Of a stretch of 64,000 nucleotides of DNA, positions 4,559 through 32,838 are shown piece by piece. Origin of the DNA: Bacteroidetes bacterium HGW-Bacteroidetes-10 (lineage in GTDB: Bacteria > Bacteroidota > Bacteroidia > Bacteroidales > UBA932); assembly GCA_002842695.1 (NCBI GenBank), contig PHDT01000004.1, positions 56,410 through 120,409 of the forward strand, written 5' to 3'. The notes below the pieces were generated by a model. The model had not been told where the DNA came from and searched no databases. It saw nothing but the letters and a program-made list of their open reading frames with translations. The translations under genes were made by a program, and so were the position numbers. Positions within the stretch are counted from its first letter, which is position 1, and each line of letters opens with the position of its first letter.

Positions 4559-5193
4559 TCAATCAAGGCCAGTTTACCGGCCGACATCTTATAACATCTG
4601 GTGGCCAGATCTGTTACTTCGTTCCTGTTATGGGTTACGTGGATTACGGTCTGGCCATCTTTTTTCAGAATACCCAGAGTTTTTGAGGCCTCTTCTCTGA
4701 GCTCTTCGTCCAGAGCACTTAATGGTTCGTCCAGCAGAAGAACAGACGGCTCATGCGCCAGTGCTCTGGCGAGAGCAACTCGCTGTCTCTCTCCTCCGGA
4801 CAAGCCGGATATACTTCTTGAGAGTAATCCGCTTATAAAAAATTGCTCAGCAAGTGCGCCGGCTGTAATCTTTATAGCCTGATCATTTAACCGGGAAACT
4901 CTCAGCGGGAAGGCTATGTTCTCAAAAACAGTCATGTGAGGGAAGAGAGCATAGTCCTGAAAAAGCATTCCAACAGGGCGTTTTCTGGCAGAAATACGTG
5001 TGTAATCTGTATTGTCAATTATTACCTTTCCACTTTCGGGAATCCTTAATCCGGCAATTATTTCAAGCAGCATTGACTTCCCTGATCCGGAAGGACCAAA
5101 AACGGCATAATACCCTCCTGTCTCAAGTTCAACAGTTATGGGGCCAAGAGTAAAGTCATCTGCTCTGAATAGTATATCGGTAAGTTTTACCAT
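4555..5193 (-). CDS. Molybdate/tungstate-type ABC transporter ATP-binding protein (short, no C-terminal TOBE domain)
   Basis: 212 aa, GPSGSGKS Walker A, LSGGERQRVALARALAHEPSVLLLDEPLSALD signature/Walker B; ends after the NBD. Confidence 0.85.
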   Translation of the reverse strand: MVKLTDILFRADDFTLGPITVELETGGYYAVFGPSGSGKSMLLEIIAGLRIPESGKVIIDNTDYTRISARKRPVGMLFQDYALFPHMTVFENIAFPLRVSRLNDQAIKITAGALAEQFFISGLLSRSISGLSGGERQRVALARALAHEPSVLLLDEPLSALDEELREEASKTLGILKKDGQTVIHVTHNRNEVTDLATRCYKMSAGKLALID

Positions 5194-27902: not shown

Positions 27903-27966
27903 CAGCAAAGCACAGAACTGCAACGCATTTTTTCTTAACGCGACTTTGCAGTTCTGTGCTTTGCTG
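27903..27966. repeat. Long inverted repeat, 21-bp perfect stem, 22-nt loop
   Basis: cagcaaagcacagaactgcaa-N22-ttgcagttctgtgctttgctg. Confidence 0.9.
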
Positions 27967-28045
27967 TATGATTAACAGAAATTTTAAATAAAAAGAGACT
28001 GGGTTGAAAAATTGATAGCCTCACAAAATTTGAGTAACTTGGTGG

Positions 28046-28073
28046 TAGGGTATTTTTATTAATAAACGGTTTA
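28046..28073 (+). promoter_or_regulatory. Candidate ECF-sigma promoter TAGGGTA-N14-CGGTTTA
   Basis: Same bipartite motif and spacing as 31877-31904; upstream of the ECF sigma gene. Confidence 0.6.
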
Positions 28074-28092
28074 ATTTCAAAAGCAGTACAAA

Positions 28093-28578
28093 TTGGGAAA
28101 AGAGGAGTTTAAAAGGCTTTTTGATACACATTTTGACGCAATCAGACGCTATCTCTATTACCGTTGTTCGGACACGGAACTGGCATCTGATGTTGCACAG
28201 GATCTCTTTACCCGAATTTGGGAAAAACAGATGGATATTGATCCATTGAAAGACAAGGCTTTGCTTTATAAAATGGCTTCCGATATGATTGTCTCCAAGT
28301 TCAGAAGGAAGAAAATTGAAATGAACTACGCAGGTTCAATTGTGTTCACCAACGATGACTCCTCTGTTTCTGATCAAGTAGAATATGAGGAACTTGCAAG
28401 AAAGTACTCCAGCACTCTTGTCAAAATGCCTGAAAAGCAGCGAACGGCATATATGATGAGCCGGGAAGAGAGTCTAAAGTACAGTGAAATAGCAGAGAGG
28501 CTTAACATTAGTGTAAAGGCTGTAGAAAAAAGAATGGCAGGTGCTCTGGAATTATTAAGGCGAGAATTATCAATCTAA
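28093..28578 (+). CDS. ECF sigma-70 factor (FecI-like)
   Basis: 161 aa, FKRLFDTHFDAIRRYLYYRCSDTELASDVAQDLFTRIWE; MSREESLKYSEIAERLNISVKAVEKRMAGALELLR; TTG start. Confidence 0.92.
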   Translation: MGKEEFKRLFDTHFDAIRRYLYYRCSDTELASDVAQDLFTRIWEKQMDIDPLKDKALLYKMASDMIVSKFRRKKIEMNYAGSIVFTNDDSSVSDQVEYEELARKYSSTLVKMPEKQRTAYMMSREESLKYSEIAERLNISVKAVEKRMAGALELLRRELSI

Positions 28579-28591
28579 CGGAATTGCAACA

Positions 28592-29437
28592 ATGAAAGGG
28601 GAATTTAAAATAGAACCCAAATGGAAGCGAAGCAGCGAAGAGGTCTGGACAGATCGCTTTGAGCAGCTTACTTCAGCTGCAGTTAGTCAAGTAGATGAAA
28701 AGGGGAGAGATTCACGGAGGGTGAGGCTCCCGGATTTCCGGGGCTATGCTTTGTATTATGCAGCTGCTGCAGTAATTATTATGCTTCTGATCCCTTTAAT
28801 GTATACCAAAAATATATCGGCCTCCCGGGGGGAGCATCTTTCGTATGTGCTTCCTGACGGATCTCAGGTTACAATCAATGCAGAGAGCAAATTGTCCTTT
28901 AAACCTCTGGTATGGTTTATATCAAGAGGGGTGAAAATGGATGGAGAGGTTCTTTTTGAAGTTAAGAAGGGTTCCGGTTTTACTGTGAAGAGCAGTAACG
29001 GCAACGTAAGGGTTCTTGGGACAACATTTAATGTTATTTCAAGAGACTCAAGATTTGAGGTTGCCTGTATAGAGGGAAGAGTTGAAGTGAGTACAAAGGC
29101 AGGAGAAGTTGAAAGGCAAAAGGTTGTAATATCCTCTGGAGAGGGAGTTGAGCTGAAGGAGAGAGAGGGGCTGATGAACATATCTCAGGAGAAGGTTGTT
29201 TCAAGTATATCTTGGAGAGGAGGAAATTTCTATTTCACTTCTGTATCTTTGCAGGTAGTTGTTGATGAAATTGCGAGACAGTACAATGTGGAGATTGAAC
29301 TTGCAGATATGGAGGAGATGATATATACAGGAAACTTCTCAGGTCAAACTTCTCTTGAAGAGGTTCTGGACATTGTATCAATTCCGTTTTCTCTGAAGAT
29401 TGAAAAAACAGAAAAAGGTTATATCCTTTACAGATAG
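28592..29437 (+). CDS. FecR-family anti-sigma factor
   Basis: One TM, LPDGSQVTINAESKLSF, VLGTTFNVISRDSRFEVACIEGRVEV. Confidence 0.93.
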   Translation: MKGEFKIEPKWKRSSEEVWTDRFEQLTSAAVSQVDEKGRDSRRVRLPDFRGYALYYAAAAVIIMLLIPLMYTKNISASRGEHLSYVLPDGSQVTINAESKLSFKPLVWFISRGVKMDGEVLFEVKKGSGFTVKSSNGNVRVLGTTFNVISRDSRFEVACIEGRVEVSTKAGEVERQKVVISSGEGVELKEREGLMNISQEKVVSSISWRGGNFYFTSVSLQVVVDEIARQYNVEIELADMEEMIYTGNFSGQTSLEEVLDIVSIPFSLKIEKTEKGYILYR

Positions 29438-29439
29438 AT

Positions 29440-31866
29440 TTGGACAGATTAAACAGATGGCTTGTTGTCATTTTATTTTTGTGTGCTTTTGATTTTTCAT
29501 TTGCACAGGGAATTCATGTATCTGCCAAAGCAAAGCCGCTAAGCGAAGTTGTTTCGGAGTTGCGAGAGAGCGCCGGGCTTTCAATCTCTTTTAACCAGAA
29601 TGAATTAAACAGGTATGTCATTACTGCCGATACAGTATTCAGCGATGGCGAATCGGCCTTAAGATATTTGCTGCAGGGAATTCCCTTGTCCTTCAGAAAA
29701 ATTAACAATGTTATTGTTATATCTGAAAAAAAAGGCAGGTATAATATCTCTGGGACAATAATTGAAAAGGAGAGTTCAGAGAGACTTCCATATACCTCAG
29801 TTATCTGTGAAGGGAAGTTGTATATGTCTGATGTAAATGGAAATTTCAATATAGTTTCATCGGATAATTCTGCAGTTATTTCATTCAAATATTTAGGATT
29901 TGGAAAGGTAGATACTCTTCTTTCGGGCGGAGGCCGGCACATTGTCTTTATGTCTCCATCGCATACGAATCTCCGGGAAGCATTACTCGAAGAGTATGAG
30001 ACAAGTAATGCCCTGCAGACGGGTGAGAGAGCGGGCGTCATGAGAATTAACCACTCTGTGGCAAAATATCTTCCCGGAAATGGTGATAACTCTGTTTTTA
30101 ATTTGCTGAGGCTTATGCCTGGTGTAAGAGCCGCAGGTGAGCCTGCCGGCTTTTCTGTATGGGGAAGTAAGCCTGGAGAAAGCACAGTTATATTTGACGG
30201 AAGCAGACTTTTTTCAATGAATGGTTACAATGAGCAGATAAGTGCAGTAAATCCTTTTATGGTCAAAGAGATAAGGGTATTAAAAGGTGGATATGATCCT
30301 GAATATGGAAATCAGACCGGATCAGTTGCTCAGATAACAGGAATTGGCGGAAACAGGAGGAAGTCAGAGCTAAAGCTCAATCTCAACAATCTTACTGCAA
30401 ATATATTTGCATCTGTACCCATAAGTGAAAAAGCTGCAGTTGCGGCCTCATACAGGCAAACATATTACGGATTGTATGATGTTAATGCACTAAATCCTTA
30501 TGGCAAAAGAGCTGAATCGGCTTCAGAATCTAAGGGACACTCCCAGTCAAATAATAAAAATGAAATTTTCATAACTCCAGACTACAGTTTCAGGGATGCC
30601 AATATCCGTTTGTCAGGGGATATGAACCACGGAGGACAATATTTTGCGTCAATTTATGGCGCTTCAGATAAGTTCCTGTACTCTCTGGTTAATGAAGATT
30701 CAGAACTTGATGCATCCGAAATTAACAGGCAAATTGCCATTTCTGCCGGCGCCGGCATTTCACACAGAGGAGGTGCTTTGACATCGGTTTCAGGTCACTT
30801 TTCTGCGCTAGCAAAAACCAGTGAAAAGGTTATACTTATTAACAGGGCTAAATACTACAATCTGGAGCTGGACAATGCTGTAAGTGATGCAGAAATTAAG
30901 GTGTCCCATGCAAGGTCTCATTCCGGATCTGGCAATTTTCAAGCCGGCGCCGAGGTAACACATCTTGGAGTTACAGAAAACATGGAAGATGCTTCGGCCT
31001 TTAAGGGGGCTCTCTTTCTGAACGAAAATCTTCTTTTTAAAAATATCTCAATTAATGCAGGAGTAAGAGGAGACCTCTATATGGGCTCTCTTTATATTCA
31101 GCCCAGAGCATCTGTAAGCCTGAATATATTAAATAACTTTTCTATAAGTGCTTCATGGGGCATATACAATCAGTTTTTGGGAAAGGTCCCGGTTATTTAT
31201 GATGAAGTTGCTCCGTCTCTTGTATGGAAGCTGCTGGGGGATGGGGGACATCCTGTTTCAAAATCTTACCACACAGTAGCAGGTCTCTCCTGGAATGGTA
31301 ATAATTTTTTAGTTTCTGTTGAGGGATTTAACAGAATAACTCAGGGTATTTCCCAGATTATTATGAGCAATAATTCTGCAAATGTTCAGACCGGCGAATC
31401 TTCAATAACGGGTGCTGATATTTTTCTTAAATGGGAAAAGAGAGGGAGCCAGGTTTTTGCCTCATTTACAGCAGCAACTGCAGAGGAGAGCTACACAGAT
31501 ACAAGAGATTATATATATCACCCGCTGGAGGTTAAGCTGGGTGCAGTAGTAAACCTCTCTCCATTCTGGTTAAGTGCAGGCTACGTCTATGGAAACGGTT
31601 ATCTCAATGCGTTTGGAACCGGCCGCTACTCCTCACTTGGAACGGATAATTACAGCAGACTAGATTTATCTGCCACTTATGCTTTCAGTATTGGGAGATC
31701 TCAGTTAAGAGCAGGGATCTCAGTTATGAATGTACTTAATACAGCAAACAAAAAGACTCTGGAAATTCTTCCGGTGCAAAGCAAGGGAAATTCCGGGTCA
31801 CTCCTGAACCTTTATGCCGAATCAATTCCGTTTACGCCTACAATCTATCTCGAGCTTTCATTATAA
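29440..31866 (+). CDS. TonB-dependent receptor with N-terminal STN signalling domain
   Basis: 808 aa, STN-like N-terminus, NISGTIIEKESSERLPYTSVICEG, MPGVRAAGEPAGFSVWGSKPGESTVIFDG plug; TTG start. Confidence 0.9.
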   Translation: MDRLNRWLVVILFLCAFDFSFAQGIHVSAKAKPLSEVVSELRESAGLSISFNQNELNRYVITADTVFSDGESALRYLLQGIPLSFRKINNVIVISEKKGRYNISGTIIEKESSERLPYTSVICEGKLYMSDVNGNFNIVSSDNSAVISFKYLGFGKVDTLLSGGGRHIVFMSPSHTNLREALLEEYETSNALQTGERAGVMRINHSVAKYLPGNGDNSVFNLLRLMPGVRAAGEPAGFSVWGSKPGESTVIFDGSRLFSMNGYNEQISAVNPFMVKEIRVLKGGYDPEYGNQTGSVAQITGIGGNRRKSELKLNLNNLTANIFASVPISEKAAVAASYRQTYYGLYDVNALNPYGKRAESASESKGHSQSNNKNEIFITPDYSFRDANIRLSGDMNHGGQYFASIYGASDKFLYSLVNEDSELDASEINRQIAISAGAGISHRGGALTSVSGHFSALAKTSEKVILINRAKYYNLELDNAVSDAEIKVSHARSHSGSGNFQAGAEVTHLGVTENMEDASAFKGALFLNENLLFKNISINAGVRGDLYMGSLYIQPRASVSLNILNNFSISASWGIYNQFLGKVPVIYDEVAPSLVWKLLGDGGHPVSKSYHTVAGLSWNGNNFLVSVEGFNRITQGISQIIMSNNSANVQTGESSITGADIFLKWEKRGSQVFASFTAATAEESYTDTRDYIYHPLEVKLGAVVNLSPFWLSAGYVYGNGYLNAFGTGRYSSLGTDNYSRLDLSATYAFSIGRSQLRAGISVMNVLNTANKKTLEILPVQSKGNSGSLLNLYAESIPFTPTIYLELSL

Positions 31867-31876
31867 GAGTGTTCGG

Positions 31877-31904
31877 TAGGGTATTTATGTATTTCTGCGG
31901 TATA
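31877..31904 (+). promoter_or_regulatory. Candidate ECF-sigma promoter TAGGGTA-N14-CGGTATA
   Basis: Shares 12-bp ggtagggtattt and spacing with 28044-28073; upstream of the DUF2202 gene. Confidence 0.6.
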
Positions 31905-31947
31905 TAATCAAAGAACGGAATCGTAAACAATTTTAATTATTAGAAAA

Positions 31948-32838
31948 ATGAAAACTGATATTTTCAGAAAACTGGTGCTCCTTTCAGTGGCGTCCTTTGC
32001 ATTAATATCATGCGCTAAGGATAATGTGTCCGATAATACTGCGGAGCTGATGGAGGCAGGTACTCCTGTTGCCATACTTGAAGTAAAGAGTGATGGAATA
32101 ACCACATTCAATCTGGCCGGCGAAACTCCTCCATTCGATTCAACTGCAGATCTCACCGCAGATGAAATTGAATTTGCCTATGCACTCAGGGAAGACGAGA
32201 AAGTGGCCAGAGATCTGTATGCGGCTTTTTTTGAGAAGTACAGTCTGAAGACATTCTCAAATATCTCCAAGTCCGAAGGTAACCATATGAGAGCTGTTGA
32301 GATACTTTTGGAGTATTATGAAATTGACTTTCCTGCTGCAGGTAATTTTGGCACCTTTGCCGACTCTGCAAGGCAGGAAGATTATGATTCACTGTTAATA
32401 ATGGGTTCAACTGCTTTAGAGGCATTCAAAGTTATGGCTCTGCTTGAGGAATCAAACATTGTCAGCTATAATTCTGTAATGGCAGACATCACAAATTCCA
32501 ATATTAAAATTGTCGTGGAGAATCTGGGAAAAGCATCAGAGAATCACTTCAGGGCTGCAATTCGCCAGATAACAGCACTTGGCGGAACATATGCACCCAA
32601 ACTGATGACTCAGGAGGAGTACAATGCCATGATTGCAAAAGGATTTGAACAAGGAAAAAGATATCGCTACAAAAATATGGGAGATACTACCAACAGCGGT
32701 AAAAAAATGAACGGAAATAAAGAAAAAAGAGGATCTGTCAATGGGAAAGGTATAAGTACCGGATCTTCTAACGGAACAACTCCAGGTAGAGAAAATCGTC
32801 AGGGTCAGCAAGGTAAGGGCTATCGCGGAGGAAAATAA
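31948..32838 (+). CDS. DUF2202 (ferritin-like) putative lipoprotein with G/K/N-rich tail
   Basis: FALISCAKDN lipobox; LTADEIEFAYALREDEKVARDLYAAFFEKYSLKTFSNISKSEGNHMRAVEILLEYYEI. Confidence 0.85.
   Translation: MKTDIFRKLVLLSVASFALISCAKDNVSDNTAELMEAGTPVAILEVKSDGITTFNLAGETPPFDSTADLTADEIEFAYALREDEKVARDLYAAFFEKYSLKTFSNISKSEGNHMRAVEILLEYYEIDFPAAGNFGTFADSARQEDYDSLLIMGSTALEAFKVMALLEESNIVSYNSVMADITNSNIKIVVENLGKASENHFRAAIRQITALGGTYAPKLMTQEEYNAMIAKGFEQGKRYRYKNMGDTTNSGKKMNGNKEKRGSVNGKGISTGSSNGTTPGRENRQGQQGKGYRGGK

Follow-up and report, generated by a model that had tools for sequence, protein, structure and literature searches.

A two-box motif as the proposed promoter of an ECF sigma factor operon and a DUF2202 lipoprotein gene in Bacteroidales

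Introduction

The closest described relatives of the locus presented here are the FecI/FecR/FecA system of Escherichia coli (ferric citrate) and the FpvI/PvdS-FpvR-FpvA system of Pseudomonas aeruginosa. The locus lies in a 64,000-nucleotide stretch of DNA from Bacteroidetes bacterium HGW-Bacteroidetes-10, hereafter the window, on contig C13 in a Bacteroidales genome of 2.41 Mb labelled G000. As in those systems, an extracytoplasmic function (ECF) sigma factor, a regulator of the FecR family and a receptor whose N-terminal domain is of the signalling type are brought together, here in one operon. In E. coli, sigma70 is responsible for transcription of fecIR, and FecI for that of fecA (PMC9249621). 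Moreover, FecI-like ECF sigma factors are a stated exception to ECF autoregulation (PMC8103513). In the window a two-box motif stands upstream of the ECF gene and again upstream of a gene for a DUF2202 lipoprotein. We consider it very probable that both elements are −35/−10 promoters of the sigma factor encoded at 28093-28578, and that this sigma factor, controlled by the receptor and FecR, activates its own operon and the DUF2202 gene.

The locus differs from classical FecIRA: the motif precedes the sigma gene (15 of 15 loci), the receptor belongs to the sigma operon, and lipoproteins are the outputs that would have promoters of their own. Judged by the motif upstream of the ECF gene, the sigma gene would be under its own control, which FecIRA sigma genes are not. 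Canonical ECF promoters carry AAC in the −35 and CGT in the −10 element (PMC8103513). The elements described here resemble them in having two short boxes, a constant spacer, a conserved A at start-site distance and a presumably autoregulatory copy, and differ in that the −35 is GGTAGGGTA, without AAC, and the −10 is CGGTWWA, without CGT. As in the ECF regulons of Bacteroides thetaiotaomicron (BtModulome, PMC12596196), a Bacteroidota ECF factor would here control envelope genes; for SigW-1 of that species a non-significant 'TGTT' −10 element has been given (PMC12596196). A TAGGGTA/CGGTWWA sigma-promoter motif was not found in the literature searched, as judged from titles.

Sequence and rarity of the motif

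The initial annotation had reported two TAGGGTA-N14-CGGTWTA sites with a shared 12-mer, and both are exactly where it had placed them. Upstream of the ECF gene the sequence is TAGGGTA TTTTTATTAATAAA CGGTTTA (28046-28073, plus strand) and upstream of DUF2202 it is TAGGGTA TTTATGTATTTCTG CGGTATA (31877-31904, plus strand). The 12-mer GGTAGGGTATTT is common to both sites and starts at 28044 and 31875. Exact match, conservation and a profile search support the two elements as follows:

28044..28073, plus strand: putative ECF-operon promoter; −35 (GG)TAGGGTA at 28044-28052, spacer of 14 nt, −10 CGGTTTA at 28067-28073
31875..31904, plus strand: putative internal DUF2202 promoter; −35 (GG)TAGGGTA at 31875-31883, spacer of 14 nt, −10 CGGTATA at 31898-31904

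These are the only two exact matches in the whole genome of 2,409,956 bases, where 0.04 would be expected by chance from composition. Many random matches in coding regions, which the initial annotation had named as grounds for abandoning the motif, did not occur in the genome-wide scan. Its pattern covers both window sites and is slightly too narrow, as it missed a site in front of a DUF4382 lipoprotein gene in the same genome. Allowing two or three mismatches produced noise: at two mismatches there were 18 matches in the genome as compared to 33 for a reversed-pattern control, and therefore only near-exact matches are informative. In 25 genomes of the genus the pattern GTAGGGT-N15-CGGTWNA had 29 matches as compared to 3 for the reversed-pattern control, and nearly all of the 29 sit directly in front of one of three genes, that for the ECF, DUF2202 or DUF4382.

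A profile was built from 28 sites of other genomes, with this genome excluded, and was then used to search this genome. The DUF2202 site is the best match genome-wide (28.1 bits, E 5.8e-6) and the ECF-operon site is second (27.7 bits, E 7.7e-6), while the third-ranked match reaches 19.1 bits. A candidate before an outer-membrane protein gene (G000:C20:49100-49132, minus strand, E 0.004) is kept in part in G021 only, the other relatives being without it, and was not counted. Matches in G128 and at G010:C1:2062355 fall within coding sequence or on its opposite strand and were set aside.

Anatomy of the putative promoters

Drawn from 37 sites, the consensus is GGTAGGGTA-N14-CGGTWWA, with the −35 beginning as GG(TAGGGTA); refined by its downstream positions it reads GGTAGGGTA-N14-CGGTWWA-N5-AnA. 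The spacer had been described as conserved in length and not in sequence, which agrees with our measurements: it is always 14 nt, and its sequence is about as unconstrained as that of the flanks (0.43 bits per position in the spacer and 0.40 in the flanks, as compared to 1.72 in the boxes). Over 32 sites an A is nearly invariant at 6 and 8 nt past the −10 (motif offsets +33 and +35; 1.80 and 2.00 bits). An A at 6–8 nt past the −10 is the usual place of transcription start. This would place the start of the ECF mRNA near 28079, 14 nt ahead of the TTG start codon, and that of the DUF2202 mRNA near 31910, 38 nt ahead of its ATG:

28079..28081, plus strand: predicted transcription start of the ECF operon, conserved A-N-A
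31910..31912, plus strand: predicted transcription start from the DUF2202 promoter, conserved A-N-A

The fixed spacer, the A 6 nt downstream and the distances to the start codons fit the −35/−10 pair that had been suggested from the motif position. The sites thus have the form expected of an ECF-dependent promoter, with two conserved boxes at constant spacing that precede genes at the distance of a start site.

A direct repeat, (G/C)GGTA, occurs in both boxes at a distance of about 19 nt, and such a repeat could form a two-turn operator. The motif might then be the site of another activator or repressor, e.g. a response regulator bound to GGGTA-N14-CGGTA, with transcription coming from housekeeping promoters. 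However, the halves behave differently, as TAGGG is invariant and the −10 is tolerant (CGGTATA, CGGTTTA, CGGTTAA and CGGTAAT all occur), and the conserved A-N-A is at start-site distance. Around the sites, the −7 element of Bacteroidota housekeeping promoters, TAnnTTTG, is not repeated at a constant position. In addition, the motif tracks the ECF gene and shows no consistent linkage to any other regulator gene. We regard a regulator of this kind as improbable.

Conservation of the motif

The motif is present upstream of the ECF gene in all 15 orthologous loci, 16–26 nt before the ECF start, and upstream of DUF2202 in all 16, 25–44 nt before that gene. The ECF loci come from the genus and from G107, a member of another family. 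Some of the conserved sites are single-base variants that an exact search misses, and the motif is kept at protein identities down to about 42–48%. Among the 25 genomes it occurs in 14 of the 15 that have the system (15 of 15 when one-base variants are included) as compared to 2 of the 10 without the ECF, G009 and G010 (Fisher p = 3.4e-4).

The motif was not found before the remaining ECF genes of this genome, and GTAGGGT was present at none of 30 other Bacteroidales ECF genes of the FecI type (TIGR02985). The earlier proposal of an autoregulated ECF with DUF2202 in its regulon is thus borne out at the level of sequence, by both sets of loci, by the association with the system and by the absence at other FecI-type ECF genes. 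We also considered TAGGGTA as a general −35 of Bacteroidota FecI-type ECF factors. This was rejected on the basis of the 30 negative loci and of the distant ECF genes lacking the full motif.

In other families orthologues with 43–54% identity have variant boxes: TAGGGGA/CGGTATA in G091, TAGGGTA/CGGATAG in G117 and TAGGGTA/CGGTTAT in G144. The full motif was not found upstream of ECF genes of less than 40% identity in other classes. Three such distant ECF loci (L162, L160 and L199, from genomes G146, G125 and G493) have TAGGGTA upstream together with a different −10, similar to TGTAYYA or TGTTTTA. This may reflect a shift of −10 specificity, and we mention it as a lead only.

Genes of the operon and their products

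In the window a SusC/SusD-like pair, the ECF sigma factor, the FecR-type regulator, the TonB-dependent receptor and the DUF2202 lipoprotein are encoded in this order and in one direction. The last four are:

28093..28578, plus strand: ECF sigma factor, 161 aa, TTG start (Sigma70_r4_2 49.7 bits, Sigma70_r2 26.7 bits)
28592..29437, plus strand: FecR-type anti-sigma/sigma regulator, 281 aa (FecR PF04773 59.8 bits, FecR_C PF16344 38.9 bits)
29440..31866, plus strand: TonB-dependent receptor with STN-like N-terminal domain, 808 aa, presumed surface sensor (Plug 40.8 bits)
31948..32838, plus strand: DUF2202 ferritin-like lipoprotein, 296 aa (PF09968 107.2 bits, cut-off 22)

The sigma factor has the composition of a group IV ECF, i.e. 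sigma2 and sigma4 domains only, both over cut-off, in 161 aa. TTG is the sole conserved ECF start codon in 14 of 14 orthologues. In three of them an ATG abuts the −10, ahead of the predicted transcription start. The ECF start is probably this conserved weak TTG, nearly leaderless at about 14 nt past the predicted transcription start. The stretch from the SusD gene to the putative ECF promoter contains a perfect 21-bp inverted repeat with a 22-nt loop (27903-27966), present in a single copy in this genome.

As in FecIRA, the FecR gene adjoins the sigma gene, 14 nt downstream. The receptor consists of a plug, a barrel and an N-terminal STN-like domain. In its structural model the N-terminal domain shows two beta-alpha-beta units, the topology expected of STN, and full-length FpvA is among the top fold matches in the PDB. 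The receptor stop codon is only 11 nt from the second promoter and no terminator lies between the receptor gene and DUF2202.

The DUF2202 protein had been called a ferritin-like lipoprotein, and this holds on both counts. The lipobox Cys22 is invariant in 16 sequences, as are E84, E110xxH113, E167/E168 and H200, the second ExxH being SxNH. PF09968 is over its cut-off, the fold is a four-helix one, and metal-ligand carboxylates and histidines are present. The structural model matches MJ0754 (PDB 3q4n, 3q4o, 3q4q, 3q4r) in the fold of the DUF2202 domain; the match to 3q4r, the MJ0754 structure with Zn2+, has a TM (template modelling) score of 0.92 over the target at 36% identity. In addition to what it shares with MJ0754, the protein of the window carries a lipoprotein signal and, at its C-terminus, a conserved tail. 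The tail is of low complexity and ends with GKGYRGGR/K, conserved in the clade; relatives often hold a CT.C or CT.T motif there. A scan of the genome collection for DUF2202 gave one relative only, the Bacteroidetes metagenome-assembled genome HGW-Bacteroidetes-14. In the literature search no paper was found on DUF2202 or MJ0754, and DUF4382 was met in one passing mention.

Further candidate targets

A third site of this genome is on the minus strand at G000:C42:2580-2608 (L115:2608-2580), before the DUF4382 lipoprotein gene, which is divergent from dihydrofolate-reductase and superoxide-dismutase genes. Four of the five genomes that own DUF4382 have the motif at this gene (this genome, G003, G021 and G022; not G017). 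Most likely the same ECF also controls the DUF4382 lipoprotein in this genome, as far as the site and its conservation indicate.

In G015 a cassette is inserted between FecR and the receptor, consisting of genes for a small secreted protein, a Fer4_5 membrane protein, an outer-membrane protein and a multi-4Fe-4S protein. At least the first gene of such a cassette is also inside the ECF operon of G008. G017 has a homologous cassette without the Fer4_5 gene (proteins 48–55% identical) elsewhere in the genome, behind its own copy of the motif. Cassette genes can thus leave the operon and yet stay behind the motif. This is a good argument, independent of the others, that the regulon is functional.

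Downstream of the motif or of DUF2202, G107, G065 and G010 have efflux genes of the CusA/CusB type. In G107 two successive motifs (L067:4383-4410 and 4840-4867) precede a 100-aa secreted protein and DUF2202, respectively, followed by a fused CusA-TolC-like protein; a cation-efflux transporter is also near the CusA/CusB-type genes of this genome. In G065 the motif (L083:4374-4347) has a related receptor on one side and, on the other, a small lipoprotein rich in histidine, after which come CusB/CusA genes.

Proposed mechanism and its evaluation

The motif with its positions, conservation and specificity is shown by these data, as are the protein families and folds. From them we infer that this ECF reads the motif, and likewise where transcription begins, in which direction regulation acts and what signal is sensed in the following scheme. 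The receptor (29440-31866) would sense a ligand at the outer membrane, and the signal would pass via its STN-like domain to FecR (28592-29437), which would release or activate the ECF. ECF-RNA polymerase would then transcribe its own operon from 28046-28073, resulting in positive autoregulation, and DUF2202 from the internal copy at 31877-31904. Because of the missing terminator and the 11 nt from receptor stop to promoter, DUF2202 is probably also reached by read-through. It would be transcribed from both promoters, giving effector in excess of sensor. The invariant TTG and the leader of roughly 14 nt may hold sensor and sigma levels low while the lipoprotein is amplified.

Several observations weigh against this scheme. 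TIGR02985 (Sig70_bacteroi1) is the best-matching NCBIfam model of the sigma factor, yet the score of 116.5 bits is below the curated cut-off of 126.4, and the protein is to be described only as an ECF related to this subfamily. Similarly, the STN domain of the receptor scores 24.2 bits, below the cut-off of 28.4 (27.3 bits in the G107 orthologue). Upstream of the G123 orthologue no such motif was found. One good motif (L080:7329-7302) stands before a Fur-like gene, DUF6769 and CusB/CusA in G010, a genome in one contig where no orthologue of this ECF was detectable. In G009 an ECF-type promoter almost identical to that of G006 is found beside an HU-CCDC81 gene (L112:9605-9633) and the operon ECF-FecR-receptor-DUF2202 is gone; by its sequence the site is a relic, and the motif can evidently outlive the operon. 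Finally, a role of the regulon in metal or redox handling at the cell envelope is suggested by neighbours and fold, and we give it about an even chance. The link to metals is drawn because the solved relative of DUF2202 binds Zn and because CusA/CusB-type efflux genes follow the motif or DUF2202.

The G010 site could speak for a system that is not truly autoregulated. It is conceivable that the ECF reads the motif at DUF2202 and at distant targets, while the copy before its own gene serves mainly for basal expression or for cross-regulation by a paralogous ECF. This would be in line with classical FecI-like systems, which are not autoregulated (PMC8103513, PMC9249621). In this genome, however, no other ECF gene was found to have the motif, and the ECF and DUF2202 sites belong to one common consensus. 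We think such an arrangement quite unlikely. The G009 site, which persists without the operon, could in turn be taken as a sign of chance or neutral inheritance, i.e. of two similar AT-rich upstream sequences without function. Against this, spacer and flanks have diverged with 12–14 positions held, the motif recurs at unlinked genes (DUF4382 and the Fe-S cassette) and, in other families, again before the ECF gene, and the independent profile ranks both window sites at the top of the genome. At the sequence level an origin of this kind is already refuted, and we assign it next to no probability.

Conclusions

Tentatively, and with somewhat more doubt than trust, we propose that FecI-type ECF factors from several families of Bacteroidales form a distinct clade, autoregulated and with its own promoter code, GGTAGGGTA-N14-CGGTWWA. 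Its regulon would be small and modular, composed of metal-binding lipoproteins and extracytoplasmic iron-sulphur electron-transfer genes. If this is true, the ferritin-like lipoprotein may be an envelope metal buffer or oxidase induced by surface signalling, and not a part of iron uptake.

A Bacteroidota genome contains dozens of ECF factors, for few of which the promoters are known. With a promoter code that extends over 15–16 orthologous loci and unlinked genes, sigma-promoter pairs could be tested directly, and orthogonal parts would become available for Bacteroides. It would also place DUF2202, a ferritin-like family of unassigned function, under surface signalling and near Fe-S and metal-efflux genes, which may serve as a first functional hypothesis for DUF2202 and DUF4382.

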